In this document: in pieces, positions 7,628 through 20,042 of the stretch
How positions within the stretch are numbered: the stretch's first letter is position 1
Layout: every line of letters starts with the position of its first letter
Virus record (IMG/VR): IMGVR_UViG_3300045825_000345
Span: 1-23,943 of that record
DNA length: 23,943 nt
Strand: one strand, 5' to 3'
DNA from: a virus
Program-made: the position numbers and the translations under genes
Notes under the pieces: model-generated
Told to the model about the DNA's origin: nothing
Seen by the model: the letters and a program-made list of their open reading frames with translations, nothing else
Database searches by the model: none

Positions 7628-8176
7628 ATGTCTACTATCTACTCACAACGCTCTTCCGCAGTCCGCGCAGCTAAGAAAGCCTGCGGTCCTGACCAAGAGT
7701 GGGCCATCCGGATGTCAGGTGATGGCTTCACATTCATCGTCCTGGACATCAATGAGAAGTTCACTGGCGCATCTGCTGTCCTGGCAGACGAGGTTGAAGA
7801 ACCCACCCAGAAAGAAATCGACGAAAGCAACGACGACGACACCGTTAGCAACTTCAACATTCATGGCCAGACACACTGCCCACACTGTGGCATTCATCTG
7901 GGCAATGGCATTGGTGTAGACGGCGACGAAGTCAACGGCAAGCCCCTGTATAACAAGCAGTTCGAATTTGTCTGCCTTGCCTGCGGTGGCGAGTTCGGCG
8001 AAAAGATTGCTCACCGCGCCCTCAAGCCCTTCCAGTTGGCAAAGCAAATCGTAGGCGAGATGGTTGCTAAGGGCAACACCAGCCGCAAAGAAATCATCGC
8101 AGCTTGTGTAGCCGCTGGCATCAAGTACAACACCGCTGACGGTGCCCACTACGAAATGTGCGTCCGCAAAAGCTAA
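7628..8176 (+). CDS. Zinc-ribbon-like hypothetical protein, first gene of the right arm
   Basis: 182 aa, family not recognised. Residues 84-87 (CPHC) and 116-119 (CLAC) form two CxxC knuckles 28 residues apart, as in a zinc ribbon. They are preceded by an acidic linker (about 55-73, rich in E/D) and followed by a basic/helical C-terminus (SRKEIIAACVAAGIKYNT) that resembles the helical ends of small DNA-binding proteins. As the first gene after the divergent promoter region it is placed like an early regulator, but no function is shown. AAAGG lies 9 bases before the ATG. Confidence 0.85.
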   Translation: MSTIYSQRSSAVRAAKKACGPDQEWAIRMSGDGFTFIVLDINEKFTGASAVLADEVEEPTQKEIDESNDDDTVSNFNIHGQTHCPHCGIHLGNGIGVDGDEVNGKPLYNKQFEFVCLACGGEFGEKIAHRALKPFQLAKQIVGEMVAKGNTSRKEIIAACVAAGIKYNTADGAHYEMCVRKS

Positions 8177-9672: not shown

Positions 9673-9691
9673 GCAATAGGGGGGCGTAGTT

Positions 9692-9740
9692 GGTGGGGGA
9701 TAAGCTCCCTGCCCGGCGAAATATCCCGCCCCCACCTTTT
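9692..9740 (+). terminator. Rho-independent terminator candidate after the DUF932 gene
   Basis: GGTGGGGG (9692-9699) is perfectly complementary to CCCCCACC (9729-9736), followed by TTTT (9737-9740). The 29-base loop is long but contains GCCCGGC. Its presence argues against a TTG/GTG start for the downstream endonuclease inside this stretch. Confidence 0.6.
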
Positions 9741-9758
9741 CCCAACCACACAGTATTT

Positions 9759-10325
9759 ATGTACTACACCTACTTTCATACCCGCAATGACACAGGCGCT
9801 GTGTTCTATGTTGGGAAAGGTAAAGGAGATCGTGCGCGCGATCAAAATCGTAACCCACAATGGAACGCTATTGTTCAAACTCACGGGCATCAAGTGCATA
9901 TAGCTGCTCATTGGGAAACAAACAAAGAAGCACTTGAGCATGAGAAGTTCTTAATCTTGTGCTTCAAAGATATGAATATTCAGCTAACAAATATGAATAA
10001 TGGAGGTGCTGGAAATGCGCCTGGAAAAGTGCGCCCTGATGATGTAAGGAAGAAAATTAGTGCCAGCCGTAAAGGCATAGTTTTCACTCCTGAAACAATT
10101 CAGAAAATGAGAGATTCTCATAAAGGAAAGAAACCTACTGACGAGACCCGCGCTAAGATGAGCGCTTCAAGAATGGGACATCAATTTTCAGAAGAGTCGA
10201 GAAAGAAGATTGGCGATGGCAATCGGGGCAAAGTCAGATCTGCAGAACTTCGTGAACGCATTAGCGCAAGTGTACTGAAAACACTTGCAAAGAAGAAATT
10301 TATCAACCAGAAAGAAAGAGAGTAA
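9759..10325 (+). CDS. GIY-YIG homing endonuclease 1 with NUMOD3 repeats
   Basis: 188 aa. The nuclease domain begins MYYTYFHTRND...FYVGKGKGDRARD, a variant of the GIY-YIG core (YTY...YVG). The C-terminal half has several NUMOD3-type DNA-binding repeats (KISASRKG, KMRDSHKGKKP, KMSASRMGHQFS, KIGDGNRGK). An in-frame TTG at 9690 would add 23 residues, but these are encoded by the terminator hairpin, so I start at the ATG at 9759 although no clear Shine-Dalgarno precedes it. It does not interrupt a gene. It is much more AT-rich than the DUF932 gene before it and lies 2 bases ahead of the Sak4-like ATPase. Probably a mobile intergenic homing gene. Confidence 0.92.
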   Translation: MYYTYFHTRNDTGAVFYVGKGKGDRARDQNRNPQWNAIVQTHGHQVHIAAHWETNKEALEHEKFLILCFKDMNIQLTNMNNGGAGNAPGKVRPDDVRKKISASRKGIVFTPETIQKMRDSHKGKKPTDETRAKMSASRMGHQFSEESRKKIGDGNRGKVRSAELRERISASVLKTLAKKKFINQKERE

Positions 10326-10327
10326 GT

Positions 10328-11020
10328 ATGGCAATCAAACTAACTAATGCCCGGGATGCAGCTGCATTGCACGGGGTAAAAACGCTCGTCTATGGACGGG
10401 CAGGAATGGGCAAGACTTATCTTGCCCGAACAGCTCCCAGCCCTGTTGTGATATCAGCAGAGTCGGGGCTGCTTTCACTACGGGATACTGCAATCCCCGT
10501 AATTGTGATTAAGACAGTTGCTGACCTACAGGATGCCTATAAATGGGCAACTGAAAGCAGCGAAGCTGCAGGATTTGAAACTTTGTACCTTGATTCAATC
10601 TCAGAGATAGCAGAGGTTGTGCTTGCCAGTGAAAAGGCAATCAACAAAGACCCGCGGGCAGCGTATGGCAACTTGATTGACATGATGCTCATAACTATCA
10701 AGTCTTTTCGCGACATCAGCGGCAAGCATGTGGTTATGACAGCCAAACAAGGCTCCAATACCGACCAGGTATCAGGAACCATCACCTATGGCCCTTCGCT
10801 TCCCGGCGCAAGGCTTGCAAATGAGATACCGTACTTATTCGATTTGGTCATGCAAATCGGCGTTGGGAAAACCCCTGACGCAGTTGAGTACCGTTACCTT
10901 CGAACCCACCCGGACATCCAGTCCGAGGCCAAGGACCGTTCGGGTGTCCTTGATACTTTGGAACCACCCGATCTTACCCACGTTTTCAACAAAATCCTTA
11001 ACACCTCGAAAGCAGCATAA
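10328..11020 (+). CDS. Sak4-like RecA-fold ATPase (single-strand annealing/recombination)
   Basis: 230 aa. Walker A GRAGMGKT (23-30) follows a short N-terminus; Walker B is LYLDSIS (about 86-92). The compact RecA-core layout with no extra domains matches the phage Sak4/AAA_24 ATP-binding proteins, which act with a phage SSB in annealing-type recombination. The next gene is a DUF669 protein, the usual partner, and the two are only 2 bases apart. Composition is lower in GC over roughly the first 530 bases than in the last 150, consistent with sequence exchange linked to the endonuclease just upstream. Alternative: a generic phage AAA ATPase. Confidence 0.88.
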   Translation: MAIKLTNARDAAALHGVKTLVYGRAGMGKTYLARTAPSPVVISAESGLLSLRDTAIPVIVIKTVADLQDAYKWATESSEAAGFETLYLDSISEIAEVVLASEKAINKDPRAAYGNLIDMMLITIKSFRDISGKHVVMTAKQGSNTDQVSGTITYGPSLPGARLANEIPYLFDLVMQIGVGKTPDAVEYRYLRTHPDIQSEAKDRSGVLDTLEPPDLTHVFNKILNTSKAA

Positions 11021-11635: not shown

Positions 11636-12457
11636 ATGGGGAAAATAGTTGACGCCATTGACGCAGCAGTACTTGCTGGGCAAGAACAGGGTCATCGTGC
11701 CCACTTGGGGTGCTCAGGCATCGGAGAGGAATGTGCCCGCAAGATCTGGTACTCGTTCCGCTGGACCTCTCAGTCCACCTTTGCCCCCAACACCCTCCGC
11801 CTCTTTGAACGGGGCCACCTAGAGGAGGACCGCTTTGTGAAGTGGCTGCGGGCAGCGGGGGTAGAGGTGTTTCAGAACGATCCCAACACCGGCCGCCAAT
11901 TTCGCTTCAAAGGCTACAAGGGCCATGTGGGCGGGGAAATAGATGGAGTGGGCATCGGTATAATCTCTGACCAACCATACCTGCTCGAGTTCAAAACCCA
12001 CAATGAAAAGTCCTTCAAAGAGCTCCAAGCCAATGGGGTGGAAATGTCCAAGCCTATCCACTACGTTCAGATGCAGATGTATATGGGCCAGTACCAACTC
12101 CCCCGCGCTTTGTACCTTGCCATTGACAAAAACTCCGACCGCCTATATGATGAGGTGGTAGAGTTTAACAGGGCGATCTATGACAAGTATCTGGCACGCG
12201 CCCAGATGATTGTGGACGCCCCCGAACCCCCTCCCCGTTTGTCCAACAACCCCACCTGGTTTGAGTGCAAGTGGTGTGACCACCATGCGGTCTGCCATCT
12301 CAAAGCAGCGCCCCTGAAGAACTGCCGCACCTGTGCCCATAGCACACCAGTAGAGGATGGAGAATGGCAATGTGAATTTCCACCTGGAATTAACCCAATT
12401 CCTGAAGAACTGATGGTGACGGGTTGCCCAATCTATTACCAACATCCCATGGAGTAG
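11636..12457 (+). CDS. Cas4/RecB-like PD-(D/E)XK exonuclease with Cys cluster
   Basis: 273 aa. The nuclease core is readable in order: FERGHLEEDRF (H61, E63/E64), GEIDGVG (D103), LLEFKT (E118-F-K120) and HYVQMQMYMGQY (Q145/Q147), the RecB/Cas4 arrangement including the QxxxY-type motif. Cys33 (GEECARKIWY) together with C211, C214 and C220 (ECKWCDHHAVC) matches the four-cysteine Fe-S pattern of Cas4/AddB nucleases. A further C230/C233/C246 set follows and may bind a second metal. It probably resects DNA ends for the Sak4/DUF669 annealing system. The last 100 bases drop in GC content towards the homing endonuclease that follows 4 bases later. Confidence 0.92.
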   Translation: MGKIVDAIDAAVLAGQEQGHRAHLGCSGIGEECARKIWYSFRWTSQSTFAPNTLRLFERGHLEEDRFVKWLRAAGVEVFQNDPNTGRQFRFKGYKGHVGGEIDGVGIGIISDQPYLLEFKTHNEKSFKELQANGVEMSKPIHYVQMQMYMGQYQLPRALYLAIDKNSDRLYDEVVEFNRAIYDKYLARAQMIVDAPEPPPRLSNNPTWFECKWCDHHAVCHLKAAPLKNCRTCAHSTPVEDGEWQCEFPPGINPIPEELMVTGCPIYYQHPME

Positions 12458-12461
12458 TAGC

Positions 12462-13052
12462 ATGATGTTCTTATATATGCTAACTTTTTCAAATGGTAAG
12501 CAATACATTGGCCAGACTAAGAATTGCAAAGACCGATTTGCTGGTCATAAGTGTGATGCGCTAACCCACAATGTAGATATTCTTGTTTACAAGGCTTGGC
12601 GCAAACACGGAGATCCGATAATTAAAGTGCTTGCAGTTGTTGAAGACTATATGATTGACGAGACTGAGATCAAAGCAATTGCAGCGTATGGTACTCTAAA
12701 TCCTAATGGCTATAATTTGGCAAACGGTGGAAATACAACGCTGGGATTAAAGCATACCCCTGAACAGTGTGAACGAAATAGACAAGCTAGATTAGGCAAA
12801 CGCCCGTCAGAAGAAACACGGGCAAAATTAAGCAAGGCTAGAATGGGAAAACCTGTTTCTGAAGCTACTCGCTTAAAAATAAGCAACGCTCTCAAAGGTC
12901 GTGCAACTTGTCCCCAAACCCCTGAAGTTAGAGCTAAACGTACTGCGTCATTAACAGGCAAAAAACACTCACAAGAGACTAAAGATCGAATGTCAGTTAT
13001 TATGACTACTGTAAGAGCTACTAAATACTGGAATAGCAGAGCTAAATCATGA
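12462..13052 (+). CDS. GIY-YIG homing endonuclease 2 with NUMOD3 repeats
   Basis: 196 aa. GIY-YIG core: FLYMLTFSNGKQYIGQT (3-19), with FAGHK and a conserved GYNLANGG further on. The C-terminal region carries NUMOD3-like repeats (NRQARLGKRPSEETRAKLSK, then ARMGKPVSEATRLKIS and GKKHSQETKDRMS). Two in-frame ATGs (12462, 12465) follow GGAG; I take the first. It is wedged between the nuclease and the helicase and forms an exact ATGA overlap with the helicase start, so it is translated as part of the operon. GC content is near 33-40%, far below the surrounding genes. Mobile homing gene. Confidence 0.93.
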   Translation: MMFLYMLTFSNGKQYIGQTKNCKDRFAGHKCDALTHNVDILVYKAWRKHGDPIIKVLAVVEDYMIDETEIKAIAAYGTLNPNGYNLANGGNTTLGLKHTPEQCERNRQARLGKRPSEETRAKLSKARMGKPVSEATRLKISNALKGRATCPQTPEVRAKRTASLTGKKHSQETKDRMSVIMTTVRATKYWNSRAKS

Positions 13053-14626
13053 TACAAGTTAGACCCTATCAATTTGAAGCAGTTGATAGTATTTACCAAT
13101 ACTTTGGCACCCAGTCAGGCAACCCCGTCATAGCCATGCCCACAGGTACCGGCAAGAGCATTGTTATTGCTGAATTTATTCGAGGTGTTATTGAAAATTA
13201 CCCAAACCAGCGTATTGTGATTGCAACTCATGTGAAAGAGCTTATATCACAAAATCATGAAAAGCTAATGATACATTGGCCGACAGCACCTGCGGGCATC
13301 TTTTCTGCAAGTGTCGGCCGTCGGGAGGTCAGCCCCATTACCTTTGTGGGCATCCAGACGGTGGCTAAGCACGCGGCGAAGTTCGGCCACGTCGACTTGC
13401 TCATCATCGACGAATGTCATCTGGTTGGGTCTGGGGCAAATACCAACTACTTGCAGTTTATTACTGATCTCAAGAAAGTAAACCCAACTCTGCGGTGTAT
13501 TGGCCTCACCGCCACCCCTTACCGCTTGGGGATGGGTATGGTGACGGACGGCGGGATCTTCACCGACGTCTGCTACGACCTAACGGAACGCCAGACCTTC
13601 AACCGGATGATTGCCGAGGGCTTCCTAGCCCCGCTCATTTCCCGTAGAACGGTTATCGAACTTGACGTCTCCCAAGTCCACAAGACGGGAGGGGAGTACA
13701 AGCAGGACGAGCTCCAAGAAGCTGTGGACAAGGCGCCCATTACCGCAGCCGCTCTTGAAGAGGCGCTGAGCGTCGGCTCTGACCGCCAGCACTGGCTGGT
13801 CTTTGCTGCAGGTATCAGCCATGCCAACCACATCTCCGAGATGCTCAACCTCATGGGGGTTCCCGCAGCTGTGGTATCTGGTGATATGCCTAAGCCCGAG
13901 CGTGAGCGGGTGCTGAGGGAGTTCAAAGCAGGTACCTACAGGGCAGTTGTCAACAACAACGTCTTGACCACAGGGTTCGACTTTCCAGGCATTGACCTCA
14001 TCGTCATGCTCCGTCCCACCTCCAGTCCTGGCCTCTGGGTACAGATGCTGGGCAGGGGAACCCGCCCCTGTGAGGGCAAGGCCAATTGCTTGGTGCTGGA
14101 CTTTGCAGGCAACACCCGCCGTCTCGGCCCCATCAACGACCCTGTCATCCCGCGGAAGAAAGGGAGTGGGGGAGGGGGCACAGCTCCCGTCCGTCTGTGT
14201 GATGAATGCCAGACCTATAATCATGCCTCCGCCCGCGTCTGCGAATGCTGTGGACACATGTTCCCAGTGGTTATCAAGATCAGTGCTTCCTCATCTTTAG
14301 CGGATGTCATAGCGGATGACTTGCCGAAAATAGCAGACTTCAAAGTGGACAGGGTGGAGTACGGTGTTCATAACAAGGCCGGGAAGCCCCCTTCCATGAA
14401 GGTCACCTACTTCGCAGGGCTGCGCAAGTTCTCCCAGTGGATATGCTTTGAGCACCAGAGTTATGCCGCCCACCGAGCTAAGTTGTGGTGGGATGAAAGG
14501 GCGCCTGGACCCTGCCCCCAAACAGTGGCAGAGGCGCTGACGCGCATTTCTGATATCAAAACGCCCAGCCTTATCAAAGTCTGGATCAACACCGAACACC
14601 CCGAGGTCCTAGGCTATGAATTCTGA
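13049..14626 (+). CDS. SF2 DEAD/DEAH-type helicase with C-terminal zinc finger
   Basis: 525 aa. Motif I MPTGTGKS (30-37), motif II DECH (121-124), motif III TATPYR (154-159), then the second RecA lobe with VLTTGFDFPGIDLIVMLRP and MLGRGTRPC (motif VI). A four-Cys module LCDECQTYNHASARVCECC follows the helicase core. Overall like phage UvsW/ResIII-type helicases used in fork remodelling and recombination. The first 85 or so codons are AT-rich (35-38% GC at 13141-13260) and the rest is about 60%, with a sharp change near 13275-13310. That boundary is discussed under findings. Its 3' end overlaps the next small gene by 11 bases. Confidence 0.94.
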   Translation: MIQVRPYQFEAVDSIYQYFGTQSGNPVIAMPTGTGKSIVIAEFIRGVIENYPNQRIVIATHVKELISQNHEKLMIHWPTAPAGIFSASVGRREVSPITFVGIQTVAKHAAKFGHVDLLIIDECHLVGSGANTNYLQFITDLKKVNPTLRCIGLTATPYRLGMGMVTDGGIFTDVCYDLTERQTFNRMIAEGFLAPLISRRTVIELDVSQVHKTGGEYKQDELQEAVDKAPITAAALEEALSVGSDRQHWLVFAAGISHANHISEMLNLMGVPAAVVSGDMPKPERERVLREFKAGTYRAVVNNNVLTTGFDFPGIDLIVMLRPTSSPGLWVQMLGRGTRPCEGKANCLVLDFAGNTRRLGPINDPVIPRKKGSGGGGTAPVRLCDECQTYNHASARVCECCGHMFPVVIKISASSSLADVIADDLPKIADFKVDRVEYGVHNKAGKPPSMKVTYFAGLRKFSQWICFEHQSYAAHRAKLWWDERAPGPCPQTVAEALTRISDIKTPSLIKVWINTEHPEVLGYEF

Positions 14627-14827: not shown

Positions 14828-15067
14828 ATGAAATCTGAAATCAAAAATGGCGTCCGAAAGCCCCGTGAAGGTTCTGTGAACCGGCGGGTGTGGGACATAA
14901 GTGACGAGGAGTTTGCCGGCGGCAAACCACTCCTTCGTCGTTCTGTGTTGGAAAGATGCGGGGCAGAAGGGATCAATCTCCGAACCGCATCTGTAGAGCA
15001 TTGTGTGTGGCGTCGCTACACAGGTCTAGTTATTAACCCCAAGAAAGGAAAGAAAGATGGCAACTAA
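14828..15067 (+). CDS. Small basic hypothetical protein ahead of queC (79-80 aa)
   Basis: Not recognised. Basic ends (KNGVRKPREG and NPKKGKKDGN) flank a core VWDISDEEFAGGKPLLRRSV. Tandem ATGs at 14825 and 14828 follow GGAG (14819-14822); the second has the better spacing, so 14828 is given. An open frame to 14768 exists, but that would ignore the ribosome site and span the promoter-like element. The stop overlaps queC by 11 bases, putting it at the head of the deazaguanine operon. Confidence 0.75.
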   Translation: MKSEIKNGVRKPREGSVNRRVWDISDEEFAGGKPLLRRSVLERCGAEGINLRTASVEHCVWRRYTGLVINPKKGKKDGN

Positions 15068-15839
15068 AGCCTTGGTAGTTTTGAGTGGCGGGCAGGATTC
15101 TACCACCTGCTTGTTTTTGGCTAAGCAGCAGTATGATGAGGTTCACGCAATCACCTTTGACTACGGCCAGCGCCATGCCATAGAGATTGAGGCGGCGGTA
15201 AAGGTAGCCCGCATGGCGGGTGTCAAATCCCACGAGCTTGTGAAGGTACCCAATTGCCTCATCTCCATGTCGCCCCTGACATCTAATAACGAGTTGGAGC
15301 GGTATGAGAACGCGGAGCAGATGGAAGCGGTAATCGGCAATCGCCGGGAACTCACTTTCGTACCCATGCGCAATGCGCTCTTCCTGACCATTGCAGCCAA
15401 CCGGGCAGAGGCGTTAGGCATCCCTGTCATTATCACAGGCGTCTGTCAGATGGACAACGCCAACTACTCCGACTGCCGGGAGGTATTTATCTGGGCAACA
15501 GAGCACTACATCAATACCGCACTTGGGTCTGAGTCATCTCCGAATCGTATTCGCATTGAAACCCCACTCATGCGCATGGACAAAGCGGACTCCTGTACTC
15601 TTGCGTTCAACACTCCGGGATGCTGGGAGGCATTGGCCTACTCCCATACGTCTTACGACGGGAAGTACCCCCCTGTGGACATGAACCACAGCAACGTGCT
15701 GCGAGCAGACGGGTTTGAGAAAGCGGGGCTGCCGGACCCGCTTGTCCTGCGCGCCTTTGACGAGGGTGTTATGAACTTGCCCCGTACCGCTAACTACACA
15801 CGTGACGCACTTGCTGGGGCACAGAACTATGTTCGGTAA
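15057..15839 (+). CDS. queC: 7-cyano-7-deazaguanine (preQ0) synthase QueC, zinc cysteines missing
   Basis: 260 aa. QueC converts 7-carboxy-7-deazaguanine to preQ0 using ATP and ammonia. The ATP-pyrophosphatase loop SGGQDST (10-16), FDYGQRH (34-40) and the C-terminal LRADGFEKAGLPDP (215-228) identify it. Oddity: cellular QueC binds zinc with four cysteines in a C-x8-C-x2-C-x2-C cluster just before LRxxG. Here residues 195-215 (YSHTSYDGKYPPVDMNHSNV, then L) have none; aligned from LRADG, the four positions read T/S, V, N and N. The rest of the protein looks intact. It overlaps queE by 11 bases and has an AAAGGA ribosome site. Product assignment is firm; the state of the zinc site is the open issue. 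Confidence 0.93.
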   Translation: MATKALVVLSGGQDSTTCLFLAKQQYDEVHAITFDYGQRHAIEIEAAVKVARMAGVKSHELVKVPNCLISMSPLTSNNELERYENAEQMEAVIGNRRELTFVPMRNALFLTIAANRAEALGIPVIITGVCQMDNANYSDCREVFIWATEHYINTALGSESSPNRIRIETPLMRMDKADSCTLAFNTPGCWEALAYSHTSYDGKYPPVDMNHSNVLRADGFEKAGLPDPLVLRAFDEGVMNLPRTANYTRDALAGAQNYVR

Positions 15840-16518
15840 GAATATCATCATCTCCCAATCCCTCGATACCTACGGGGACTTGAATGTGATTGGGATCTTC
15901 TACACCATCCAAGGGGAAGGCCCATATGCGGGGTTGCCTGCGGTCTTTGTGCGCTTGGCTGGTTGCAACCTGCGCTGTACTTGGTGCGATACGGATTTTG
16001 AATCCAATCCGAAAGAGATGACGGCATTGGAGGTGCATGAAGAAGTCATGAAGCAGTCTCGTGGTCGGGCACAGGTCTGCGTCATTACGGGTGGGGAGCC
16101 GATGCTTCAGAACATCATCCCCCTCATCCGAGAACTCAACCGCTACCAACTGCGGGTCCAAATAGAGACCGCAGGGACGGTGTGGATCCCGGGACTAGAA
16201 AATGTAGACTTCTCCCTCGTCTGCTCCCCCAAGACGGGGCGGGTGCATGCCAAGATCCAGGAAAACTGTACCCATTTCAAGTACGTTGTTGGGGTGGGCG
16301 ATGTCATTGACAACGGTTACATTGTTACTGCCACCCAGCCTAAGGCTAAGCCTGCCCGCCTGGCATGGCCAGACAACCGGGCAACCATCTGGATCCAGCC
16401 CCGAGATGACCATGACGAGGAGAAGAACGCGGCCAATATCATATTCGCCCGAGACCTGTGCTTGGAATATAGCTACCGAATGGGCGTCCAGTTACACAAA
16501 ATCATCAACGTGGAGTAA
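15829..16518 (+). CDS. queE: 7-carboxy-7-deazaguanine synthase QueE (radical SAM)
   Basis: 229 aa from the ATG at 15829, which overlaps the queC stop; an upstream GTG at 15802 would add 9 residues with less support. QueE rearranges 6-carboxytetrahydropterin to 7-carboxy-7-deazaguanine. The radical SAM cluster motif is C46-NLR-C50-TW-C53, preceded by YTIQGEGPYAGLPAVFVRLA. ITGGEP (87-91) is the SAM-binding motif, and CSPKTG, IQPRDD and a C-terminal QLHKIINVE complete the family pattern. Canonical in length and motifs, in contrast to QueC and QueD on either side. Confidence 0.95.
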   Translation: MFGKNIIISQSLDTYGDLNVIGIFYTIQGEGPYAGLPAVFVRLAGCNLRCTWCDTDFESNPKEMTALEVHEEVMKQSRGRAQVCVITGGEPMLQNIIPLIRELNRYQLRVQIETAGTVWIPGLENVDFSLVCSPKTGRVHAKIQENCTHFKYVVGVGDVIDNGYIVTATQPKAKPARLAWPDNRATIWIQPRDDHDEEKNAANIIFARDLCLEYSYRMGVQLHKIINVE

Positions 16519-16522
16519 AATC

Positions 16523-16693
16523 ATGAACCAGAAGAAACTGAGTGAATGCAATCGTGAGAACATTGTCTGCCAGGACGGCCCCTTCAAGGGTGAGGTCCTG
16601 CGCTTCTCTATCAACGGCACCACTCTGGTGTTTACTGTCAAAGGCCAGACCGGCTATTACAAGAATGGATATTGGAATGCCCAAGTATCGTAG
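16523..16693 (+). CDS. Small hypothetical protein between queE and queD (56 aa)
   Basis: ATG 4 bases after the queE stop, with GGAG 7 bases upstream. The sequence (MNQKKLSECNRENIVCQDGP, then FKGEVLRFSINGTTLVFTVKG and YYKNGYWNAQVS) looks like a small beta-rich fold. It overlaps the start of queD by 17 bases in another frame. No known function; its fixed place inside the deazaguanine operon and good ribosome site support expression. Confidence 0.7.
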   Translation: MNQKKLSECNRENIVCQDGPFKGEVLRFSINGTTLVFTVKGQTGYYKNGYWNAQVS

Positions 16694-17132
16694 TACCAAG
16701 ACGTACACCGCAGAACGCGGGTACGCAGTTGCCTACCGCCAATGGCGGGCGGACAGCCATTGCAACCAAATCCACGGGTATGTCCTTGGGTTCCATTTTG
16801 AGTTTGAGGCGGACGATTTGGACGCACGTATGTGGGTCGTTGATTTTGGCTCATTGAAGCCTCTCAAGGCCAAGTTAGACGAGTGGTTTGACCACACCTG
16901 CTTGGTGGCCCAAGACGACCCCGAGTTTGCCACTTTCCAGATGCTTCATGACAAAAAGATGATCAAGATGGTAGTGGTAGAAAAGACGGGCTGCGAAGGT
17001 CTGTCCGAGTGGCTTTACCAGTACATTGATGAGATTTGGATGAAAGACAATGGGTACGCTGACCGCTGCCGCATCTCCAAGGTCGAAGTCCGGGAAACGC
17101 CCAGCAACGCAGCCTCTTACAACAGGAACTAA
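16677..17132 (+). CDS. queD: 6-carboxy-5,6,7,8-tetrahydropterin synthase QueD, atypical metal site
   Basis: 151 aa. QueD makes 6-carboxytetrahydropterin from the FolE product. Family marks: C29-NQI-H33-G (catalytic Cys and HG), VVDFGSLKPLK (54-64), FDH (D72-H73) and E107 in the TGCEGLSEW segment. The canonical zinc triad is His in AAH plus both His of HGH; here these read Y20, H33 and Y35. H28 (DSHC) might substitute. I associate the AYRQWRADSHC...HGY pattern with a phage QueD subgroup, from memory. Start: ATG at 16677 inside the preceding small gene; ATG at 16665 is possible. Stops 1 base before folE. Confidence 0.87.
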   Translation: MPKYRSTKTYTAERGYAVAYRQWRADSHCNQIHGYVLGFHFEFEADDLDARMWVVDFGSLKPLKAKLDEWFDHTCLVAQDDPEFATFQMLHDKKMIKMVVVEKTGCEGLSEWLYQYIDEIWMKDNGYADRCRISKVEVRETPSNAASYNRN

Positions 17133-17133
17133 G

Positions 17134-17682
17134 ATGCCCGAGAAAATCATCAAAGATCTCCTTGCCTTCATAGGCGAGGATCCGGAACGTGAAGGTCTCC
17201 AAGAAACCCCCGCCCGTGTGCTCAAGGCATGGAAGTTCTGGACACAGGGCTACCAGATGAATGCGGGGAGCATTTTGAAGGTGTTCGAGGATGGGGCTGA
17301 TGGATGCGACCAGATGGTGGTGCGGAAGAACATCCCGCTGTACTCCAAGTGCGAACACCACTTGGCTGACATCATCGGGACCGCCACTGTCGCCTACATT
17401 CCGAGGGGCAAGATTGTGGGACTGTCCAAGCTCGACCGTCTGGTCATCATGTACTCCCGTCGTCTCCAAGTCCAGGAGAGACTGACCAACCAGATAGCTG
17501 ACGCCATCCAAAAGCACCTTAACCCCATCGGGGTGGGTGTCTGGGTGAATGCTCGGCATATGTGTGTTGAATCGCGTGGGGTCCAGCACGCAGACAGCAC
17601 CACCATTACCACCGCGCTCCGTGGCGCGATGTTAGACGAGCCCGCAACGCGCTCAGAATTTTTGGCCCTGTGCCGTAACTAA
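17134..17682 (+). CDS. folE: GTP cyclohydrolase I FolE
   Basis: 182 aa, catalyses GTP to 7,8-dihydroneopterin triphosphate, the entry step to deazaguanines (and folate). Motifs are complete: EDPEREGLQETPARVLKAW near the N-terminus, zinc site SKCEHHLADIIG (C73, H76) with C144 in ARHMCVESRGV, GLSKLDRLV, and RRLQVQERLTNQIA. S155-T-T and the terminal RSEFLAL fit the family. Start MPEKI chosen because the ATG follows the queD stop by one base; the longer upstream frame lies within queD. Having its own FolE frees the phage from the host folate pool. Confidence 0.96.
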   Translation: MPEKIIKDLLAFIGEDPEREGLQETPARVLKAWKFWTQGYQMNAGSILKVFEDGADGCDQMVVRKNIPLYSKCEHHLADIIGTATVAYIPRGKIVGLSKLDRLVIMYSRRLQVQERLTNQIADAIQKHLNPIGVGVWVNARHMCVESRGVQHADSTTITTALRGAMLDEPATRSEFLALCRN

Positions 17683-17694
17683 GAAAGTACCATC

Positions 17695-17859
17695 ATGAAC
17701 TTTACCTTTCCCCTTGAAGCAGTGAACCTCATTCTCCACGCGCTGAGCAAGTTGCCTTACGAGCAGTCGGCCGATATGATTGCAGAAATTCGCAAGCAAG
17801 CCCAGCCCCAAGTGGACGCACTCCAGGCAGCCCCCGTAGCTACTGAAAGCGCTGAATAA
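17695..17859 (+). CDS. Small phage-conserved hypothetical protein (54 aa)
   Basis: [20 protein letters not shown] begins a short two-helix protein, followed by [20 protein letters not shown] and an Ala/Glu-rich tail ending ATESAE. Proteins with this N-terminal pattern (NLILxAL...PYxQ) recur as small ORFs in many phages, role unknown. It fills the folE-queF gap exactly: 12 bases after folE and 1 base before queF. Confidence 0.75.
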
Positions 17860-17860
17860 A

Positions 17861-18319
17861 ATGAAGCTCCATGAAAACCTGAATGCCTTGGGCAATTCAG
17901 CTGTCAACAAACCTCTATATGACAAGCCTGGTGCAGACAAGACCGTGCTGGAAAAGTTTCCTAATCCACACATGGTTATGAACGGGATTGGGGCGCTTGG
18001 TTTAGTCAACATTCGAGCGCCTGAATTTACATCGCTATGTCCTCTAACAGGTGCCCCTGATTTTGCAACCATTGTCATTGATTACGTTCCTAAGCAGTGG
18101 AATGTTGAATCTAAGGCGCTGAAGTTGTACCTTTATAGCTTTCGCAACGAAGGTGAATTTCATGAGTCGGTTATTTGCCGTATTTGCAACGACTTGGTGG
18201 AACTACTTGACCCAACTTGGATTCGGGTTAAAGGCGAATTCACACCGCGTGGCGGAATTCCATTCTGGCCAACTGCAATCTACGGTTCTTTGCCTGAAGC
18301 ATTCAAGCAAGAAGTGTAA
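17861..18319 (+). CDS. queF: NADPH-dependent preQ0 reductase QueF (type I, short form)
   Basis: 152 aa, the unimodular QueF type. It reduces preQ0 (nitrile) to preQ1 (aminomethyl). Nucleophile C60 in [10 protein letters not shown] with D67; the QueF motif E83-S-K-A-L-K88; E102 in FHES for substrate binding; and GEFTPRGGI near 130-138. All key residues are present with the spacing of the Bacillus enzyme. This step is needed only if preQ1, rather than preQ0, is the final base, so it predicts the DNA modification. GC content is low for the operon (about 42-52% by line), falling towards the homing endonuclease that starts 3 bases downstream. Confidence 0.95.
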
Positions 18320-18322
18320 GCA

Positions 18323-19099
18323 ATGAGCTTGCCTACCGCCTCAATGTGTGTCTATCAAGTTACCTGCTTGGTAACGGGTAAGCACTATGTTGGTCAAACT
18401 CGTAGGGGTTTGAAAGAGCGGTGGGCGGGCCATTTAACAGATGCTAAGTATCATCGGGGCTGTAAAGTATTTTCAAATGCACTGAAAAAATATGGTCAAG
18501 ATGCTTTTGTAGTTAGAGTTCTTGAAGTTTGCAATACAAGAGAAGCACTTAATCTTCGTGAGCAATACTGGATTGAAACTGTAGGCTGCTTGTTTCCAAA
18601 TGGGTATAACTTGAAAACAGGCGGAGATGTTCCAGTAGCTACTGAGTATCTTAAAGCAGCCATCTCAGCAGCCAGGCAACGGCCTGAAACCAAGGCAAAG
18701 GCGTCTGCATCAGGCAAAGCCATGTGGCAAGATCCTGCCTACATTGCTCGGCAAAAGAAGGCGCTTGCTATTGCCATGGCTCGGCCTGAGTACTTTGAAA
18801 AAATGTCGCATGCATCTGCTGCCTCTTGGAGTAATGAAGAAAAGAGAAAAAAGCAGTCTATGAAGCATAAAGAGCTCTGGCAAGACCCTGTTTTTAAGGC
18901 CAAGCGAATGCAAGATATGGCGCCCACAGGTGAAGCCCGGCTAAAGCAAAGGCAGGCCATGCAGACAATGTGGGCTGACCCAGTGTTTAGAGAACAAAAG
19001 CAGAAGGCACTAGCAGCGGCCGCCTCAACGCCTGAAGCAAAGGCCAAACGAAAAGCAACTTGGGCAAAAAAGAAAGAACAAAATGAAATTGGTACCTGA
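18323..19099 (+). CDS. GIY-YIG homing endonuclease 3
   Basis: 258 aa. GIY-YIG core CVYQVTCLVTGKHYVGQT (9-26), then R32/W34/H37 (KERWAGH), a catalytic-type E80 and GYNLKTGG. The remainder is a DNA-binding region with three spaced repeats built on W-(Q/A)-D-P-(A/V)-(Y/F): residues 135-140, 186-191 and 217-222, each followed by a basic helix, plus a related SWSNEEK at 168-174. This differs from the NUMOD3 repeats of the other two endonucleases. It lies between queF and dpdA and overlaps the dpdA start by 17 bases, so it was placed without breaking either gene. Confidence 0.92.
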   Translation: MSLPTASMCVYQVTCLVTGKHYVGQTRRGLKERWAGHLTDAKYHRGCKVFSNALKKYGQDAFVVRVLEVCNTREALNLREQYWIETVGCLFPNGYNLKTGGDVPVATEYLKAAISAARQRPETKAKASASGKAMWQDPAYIARQKKALAIAMARPEYFEKMSHASAASWSNEEKRKKQSMKHKELWQDPVFKAKRMQDMAPTGEARLKQRQAMQTMWADPVFREQKQKALAAAASTPEAKAKRKATWAKKKEQNEIGT

Positions 19100-20042
19100 T
19101 TTTAATCTCAACTTCTTCTTTTCAGGAGGGATGGGTCGAGTTGACTGGCATGAGGAGCGGCTTGTTGGTGAGATGCAATGTCGCCTACACTCATGCCATG
19201 GAAATTATTTGAAAGACGCAAAGCGATGGGCAAAGTTAGTTTCACGGCCTGATAATCAGATTCGATATTTCATGGCAGACTCTGGCGCGTTTACTTCTTG
19301 GAAAAGTGGACACAAGGTTGACATCAATGAGTTGCTTAAAATTTACGGCGATATTATGTCCCTCATTGATCTTAATAAGGTTACACCCTTTCTTATCAAT
19401 TTAGACGTCATTCCGGGAGCTGCAGGACGCACAGCTGACGCAGTTGAAGTAGCCGCCGCTATCCGAGAATCCGATGTCAACTTCAATATCCTGGTCAAAG
19501 AGTTTGGCGATCGCGTCATCCCGGTATTCCACCAGAATGAATCTGAGGCCCGGTTAGCAGAGGTTTGCAGCATGGCCAAGTACATTTGCGCTAGCCCCCG
19601 AAACGATTTACCCGAATGGACTCGGGTTGCCTGGTCTGAAGAAGTGCATCAGAAAATCCCGAAGGGCATTACTACTCATGGGCTGGCAACTACAGGCACC
19701 ACCATGATGTCTCGTGTGCCATGGTGGTCGGTTGACAGTGCCGCTTGGCTGTTCTCTGGCGCCATGGGAAAGGTTGACGTTCTTAACGGATCGAAGTTTG
19801 TTTCCCTTAACATATCACAGGAGTCCCCAGACCGCTACAACGCTGGGAAGCACTATGATAATGGGGACAAACACATCAAGGAGAAGATCGAAGAACGGGC
19901 CGCGTTCCACGGGATCTCTATTGACAAGTTGCGGACTGACCACATGGCCCGTAAGTTACTTAACGGATTGGAGCTGATAGAGTGGCTCAAGACTTTTAAG
20001 TTTGAAGAGCCTGACTTCCAACCTGCCTTATTTGATCTCTGA
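19083..20042 (+). CDS. dpdA: DpdA-type DNA-guanine transglycosylase (7-deazaguanine insertion)
   Basis: 319 aa. DpdA is the tRNA-guanine transglycosylase relative that swaps guanine for a 7-deazaguanine in DNA. Evidence: FMADSGAFTSW (63-73), equivalent to the DSGG(Y/F) acid/base motif of TGT with D66; LINLDVIPG (D108); PVFHQNE (148-153); ITTHGLATTG (196-205); and PWWSVDSAAWLF (213-224) where D218 is a good candidate for the nucleophile. Length and lack of the TGT zinc site fit the phage DpdA group. It follows the complete preQ1 pathway in the same operon, which makes the assignment much stronger. The first third is AT-rich relative to the rest. Confidence 0.9.
   Translation: MKLVPDFNLNFFFSGGMGRVDWHEERLVGEMQCRLHSCHGNYLKDAKRWAKLVSRPDNQIRYFMADSGAFTSWKSGHKVDINELLKIYGDIMSLIDLNKVTPFLINLDVIPGAAGRTADAVEVAAAIRESDVNFNILVKEFGDRVIPVFHQNESEARLAEVCSMAKYICASPRNDLPEWTRVAWSEEVHQKIPKGITTHGLATTGTTMMSRVPWWSVDSAAWLFSGAMGKVDVLNGSKFVSLNISQESPDRYNAGKHYDNGDKHIKEKIEERAAFHGISIDKLRTDHMARKLLNGLELIEWLKTFKFEEPDFQPALFDL

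Follow-up and report, generated by a model that had tools for sequence, protein, structure and literature searches.

The sequence analysed here, a single strand of 23,943 bases from virus record IMGVR_UViG_3300045825_000345 (hereafter the window), carries all genes between positions 7628 and 23035 on the + strand. These encode a Cas4-domain exonuclease, an SF2 helicase, a Sak4-like annealing protein, a DUF669 single-strand binding protein, a dpdA-like transglycosylase, and what we take, from position and our own reading, to be a clamp, a polymerase and a queD product. A 7-deazaguanine gene set is also present, comprising QueC, a radical-SAM QueE-like protein, the QueD-like protein, FolE and QueF; with the dpdA-like gene it occupies positions 15057-20042, and it suggests a phage whose DNA carries 7-deazaguanine modification, in which case the endonucleases described below must tolerate or cut modified DNA. 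The gene order is broken by three endonuclease genes of the GIY-YIG/NUMOD type, named HEG1, HEG2 and HEG3 (Table 1).

HEG2, which encodes 196 amino acids and lies exactly where an endonuclease reading frame had been placed by the original prediction, separates the exonuclease gene from the helicase gene, and its stop codon overlaps the helicase start (ATGA). Its product matches the GIY-YIG domain (Pfam PF01541) at 25.7 bits against a cut-off of 22.6, contains the NUMOD3 motif, of the DNA-binding repeat type (1.9e-11), and matches homing endonuclease family PHROG 314 (3e-34); residues Y5, Y15, R25, E69 and N85 are conserved across four endonucleases. The gene stands between two intact reading frames, outside any intron or intein, and an intron origin was rejected because a search of the window against Rfam returned no match. 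On these features HEG2 is a predicted free-standing GIY-YIG homing endonuclease gene. Its distribution is sporadic, the gene being absent from the junction in phages L025, L026, L251 and L330 and in 12 further phages. A protein search for a second carrier gave a best identity of 38%, with none at this junction among the matches listed; none was found by scanning helicase, exonuclease and neighbouring-gene alignments, and no plasmid match was found.

An unsupervised two-state model (HMM) of GC at third codon positions (GC3), supplied with no positions, divided the + strand genes so as to leave exactly three low-GC3 tracts, at 9786-10633, 12338-13312 and 17906-19469, each of which overlaps one endonuclease gene. 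Across the second tract GC3 falls from about 0.68 to 0.32. This tract consists of the last 39 exonuclease codons, HEG2 and the first ~88 helicase codons, so that the composition spills over ~120 bases of the exonuclease gene and up to ~260 bases of the helicase gene. After amino-acid correction, GC-ending codons number 11 of 36 in the exonuclease flank, where 22.6 are expected, and 27 of 84 in the helicase flank, where 52.9 are expected (z in Table 1); the lowest value in the corrected background of 2335 88-codon windows is -2.55, and among the 5' ends of ten further genes of the window z ranges from -2.4 to +1.3, with no comparable dip. The compositional observation is confirmed. The AT-rich tract had been proposed at 12360-13310, and both of its ends fall within about 20 bases of those given by the model. 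Recounted by line, GC is 60% at 12301-12360, 42% at 12361-12420 and 62% at 13321-13380, as first given; inside the endonuclease gene (12481-12540) 33% becomes 35%, and in the helicase gene (13141-13260) 35-38% becomes 37-38%, all within two percentage points.

Table 1. Endonuclease genes of the window, their neighbours and the associated segments of low GC3.
Feature	Position	Strand	Evidence or remark
HEG1, endonuclease gene (NUMOD3; homing endonuclease family), TTG start	9690..10325	+	PHROG 314, 6e-21; Pfam NUMOD3
Sak4-like annealing-protein gene, low-GC3 first 102 codons, downstream of HEG1	10328..10633	+	z -5.5
Cas4-domain exonuclease gene	11636..12457	+	PHROG 1990, 3e-106
Exonuclease gene, low-GC3 3' end (codons 235-273), upstream flank	12338..12454	+	z -4.0; HMM boundary 12338
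HEG2, predicted free-standing GIY-YIG endonuclease gene with NUMOD3 motif	12462..13052	+	
SF2 helicase gene (ResIII/Helicase_C)	13049..14626	+	Pfam; PHROG 16
Helicase gene, low-GC3 5' end (codons 1-88), downstream flank	13049..13312	+	z -5.9; HMM boundary 13312
Helicase codons 20-37, native-composition patch with Walker A (AMPTGTGKS)	13106..13159	+	inside low-GC3 flank
QueF-like gene, upstream of HEG3, low GC3	17861..18319	+	z -5.7
HEG3, GIY-YIG endonuclease gene	18323..19099	+	Pfam GIY-YIG 6e-10
dpdA-like gene, low-GC3 5' end (first ~110-129 codons)	19083..19469	+	z -6.5

Even with the endonuclease codons taken out, the flanks of the three endonuclease genes remain the strongest low-GC3 segments, with scores in descending order of 34.4, 25.9 and 16.8, compared with 8.0 for the fourth segment and a 99% level of 12.9 in shuffles. 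The third strongest is the 5' end of the Sak4-like gene beside HEG1. HEG1 itself is missing in L025, L250, L251 and L330, and a search for a second carrier of it found none. Over the first 102 Sak4-like codons the similarity of the window to relatives is 0.58-0.65, lower than the 0.70 seen among those relatives.

The helicase gene of the window has the strongest 5' dip among 165 homologues, its first 78 codons differing from the rest by -0.32 in GC3; the mean for the remaining 164 is +0.03 (s.d. 0.06), with -0.20 as the second strongest dip. That second dip belongs to a Comamonas contig (L161, 8001-8234), where a non-endonuclease insert, possibly clamp-like, adjoins. The first 12 relatives have the exonuclease and helicase genes together and a 5' dip in none of the 12 helicases; one of them, L019, carries between the two genes a short insert that is not an endonuclease gene. 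Likewise, in the closest relatives (L025, L026, L251 and L330, with 68-73% helicase identity), which have the empty junction, there is no dip, and GC3 over the same stretch is 0.53-0.58, compared with 0.35 in the window. An AT-rich helicase 5' end in homologues lacking the endonuclease, which would have told against the original prediction, was looked for and not found.

The same prediction held that the first ~85 helicase codons should be divergent, and this was not borne out. Protein identity of codons 1-78 to the HEG2-less L025 and L026 is 65-71%, which is not unusual; in a tree of codons 1-88 the window stays in the phage clade to which the rest of the gene assigns it, with no detectable shift of topology between the two segments; and clade-specific derived residues are kept at 6 of 11 sites there and at 33 of 54 elsewhere (p 0.74). 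The best identity to an outsider is 0.71 over codons 1-78 and 0.59 over codons 81-525, so that the window's lead is smaller at the 5' end, in what is a low-power comparison. Since these codons belong to the same clade and show normal identity, the donor, if there was one, must have been a related phage, and a related phage of lower GC is what homologous repair would need.

Nor does the Walker A motif appear clearly imported, as had been supposed, its codons forming the only stretch of native composition within the tract. GC3 is 0.21 over helicase codons 1-19, 0.78 over codons 20-37 and 0.23 over codons 38-77. A scan for such a patch within the helicase tract gave p 0.009, the patch having been picked after the data were seen; with the codons fixed, the contrast of patch minus flanks in the window ranks first of 160, and none of the 159 homologues, low-GC ones included, has one as large. 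The helicase tract might thus be discontinuous, the Walker A codons having kept or regained the recipient sequence and both sides having been replaced, although we consider this rather unlikely. Were it so, conserved motifs would serve, when homing takes place between diverged phages, as sites of crossover or as islands spared from replacement, and a homing event would rewrite the gene on either side of its best conserved part.

It is HEG3 that gives co-conversion in the window its strongest support. Phage L330 carries a HEG3 homologue, 81% identical, at the same site (region 17861-19469 of the window, 8807-10957 of L330), and in both genomes dpdA begins within the final codons of HEG3. Identity of the window to L330 is 0.77 over dpdA codons 1-125, and to phages without HEG3 it is 0.42-0.63; past codon 125 the excess identity to L330 is gone. 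The best breakpoint falls at codon 108-111, and none of 20,000 block-permutation shuffles was as extreme. In the tree of codons 1-125 the window and L330 are joined (support 92/96), and trees that place the window beside L186 or L025 can be rejected (p 0.0009 and 0.0017). Past codon 125 L330 instead joins the HEG3-less L186 (86/95), the pairing of window and L330 not being formally rejected there (p 0.08). Low GC3 extends to dpdA codon 108 in L330 and to about codon 129 in the window, and the composition step in dpdA hence lies near a recombination breakpoint. The sharing of HEG3 and the dpdA 5' end, with the grouping lost after the breakpoint, indicates that the endonuclease gene and the downstream 5' end travelled together; judged from these alignments and trees, HEG3 and the first ~110-125 dpdA codons are co-inherited by the window and L330. 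For queF, upstream, neither identity nor trees gave excess identity or a signal of shared ancestry between these two phages. At folE (17134-17679) the window, L330 and L186 group together, far from L025 and L251; we regard this as a separate mosaic exchange, with no endonuclease gene adjoining.

Endonuclease inserts in other phages bear on how general such spill may be. L330 has a fourth endonuclease gene, HEG4 (L330 11931-12683), between its clamp and polymerase genes and 40% identical to HEG2; its low GC3 spills upstream into the clamp gene and not into the polymerase gene. At the exonuclease-helicase junction itself, three other phages carry inserts that are apparently HNH-type nucleases, with a helicase dip of -0.11 in L099 and none in L173 or L076, and it looks as if endonuclease genes have landed at this junction more than once. 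We rejected a general rule by which an endonuclease gene would depress GC in its downstream neighbour, the spill of HEG4 being upstream only and two of these junction inserts lacking a dip. Spill is common, yet it varies in side and size.

Our preferred explanation, to which we assign a probability of roughly 0.74, is that HEG2 was brought in together with its flanks by homologous recombination from a related phage of lower GC, that is, by co-conversion. The putative HEG2 enzyme would cleave the allele that lacks its gene in a phage infecting the same cell; the break would be widened, and repair would copy the endonuclease gene with flanking donor DNA, amounting to ~120 bases of the exonuclease gene and 190-260 bases of the helicase gene, possibly in patches. 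Such a cut, at its presumed position and repaired from a presumed donor, with HEG2 acting as HEG3 is supposed to have acted, would account for the observed steps in composition, the empty sites and the parallels at HEG1 and HEG3. Co-conversion, as originally proposed, gains from the lack of a dip in HEG2-less homologues and from the co-transfer seen in the trees at HEG3; its corollaries of a divergent helicase 5' end and an imported Walker A do not stand. Against it at HEG2 are the lack of a detectable change in ancestry over helicase codons 1-88, the native Walker A patch, the mixed results at other junction inserts and the one-sided spill of HEG4 in L330, and the case there is a purely compositional one, a second carrier at the junction not having been found.

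The clade-specific residues and normal protein identity of helicase codons 1-88 would equally follow from synonymous change in place, and the flanks may have drifted to low GC after HEG2 arrived, for instance if repeated cuts were mended by an error-prone process or codon selection beside the insert was relaxed, with no import from a donor. We think this unlikely: in-place change does not produce a composition step near a change of tree topology such as that at HEG3, it sits poorly with HEG4 in L330, which has no dip downstream, and it would have to spare the Walker A patch. A slightly smaller chance attaches to the endonuclease gene having been a passenger, not the driver, in a low-GC block placed by chance mosaic recombination between related phages. 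Mosaicism occurs elsewhere in the clade, as the folE grouping and the divergent dpdA and clamp genes of L026 attest; against its being fortuitous here, all three low-GC3 blocks (3/3) coincide with endonuclease genes and none lies elsewhere.

The two remaining explanations are far less probable. Gene starts are sometimes AT-rich, and the helicase 5' end might be a conserved feature of the gene, such as an unstructured translation start. That idea is already refuted by the 164 homologues, none of which falls below -0.20, and the tract moreover runs to helicase codon 88 and upstream into the exonuclease gene. An assembly chimera must be considered for a metagenomic contig, the window being a virus record of 23.9 kb, and is just as improbable: no reading frame is broken at any of the three sites, and the HEG3 junction recurs in L330, an independent contig.

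Most of what is known of co-conversion by phage homing endonucleases comes from crosses of T4, and the mechanism is not new; the copying of flanking coding DNA along with a homing endonuclease gene is an established case (PMC2988022). What the window adds is its apparent replication at three genes in one natural genome. Each has a footprint of ~0.1-0.4 kb in the adjoining genes, and for one of the three a second carrier and the trees confirm it. Since such footprints are measurable in composition, third-position scans could map homing events and tract lengths in metagenomic phages, where they show selfish genes apparently replacing the 5' ends of genes for recombination and DNA modification.

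The free-standing Seg and Mob endonucleases of T4 cleave genes nearby, at some distance from their own, and their homing leaves co-conversion tracts that have been sequenced, SegA adjoining uvsX, SegE adjoining uvsW and SegG adjoining gene 32 (PMC2988022). The likeness lies in an intergenic GIY-YIG gene adjoining conserved recombination or replication genes, HEG1 standing beside the annealing-protein gene and HEG2 beside the helicase gene. Here, by contrast, the tract is read from composition, cleavage, target and homing are predicted, and the phage belongs to another clade than the T4-like phages, being related to Queuovirinae-type phages and having a 7-deazaguanine gene cluster. Unlike intron-type homing, the endonuclease genes of the window stand between, not inside, reading frames, and without an Rfam match. 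Barth, Dunham and Seed (2023) described endonuclease genes that border exchanged DNA in ICP1-like and diverse other phages (PMC10448857), and the window resembles that allele exchange in having endonuclease genes at the boundaries of exchanged DNA, beside essential genes; the ICP1-like islands, however, exceed 10 kb and are bracketed by two endonuclease genes, whereas here single genes appear to carry ~0.1-0.4 kb of their neighbour.
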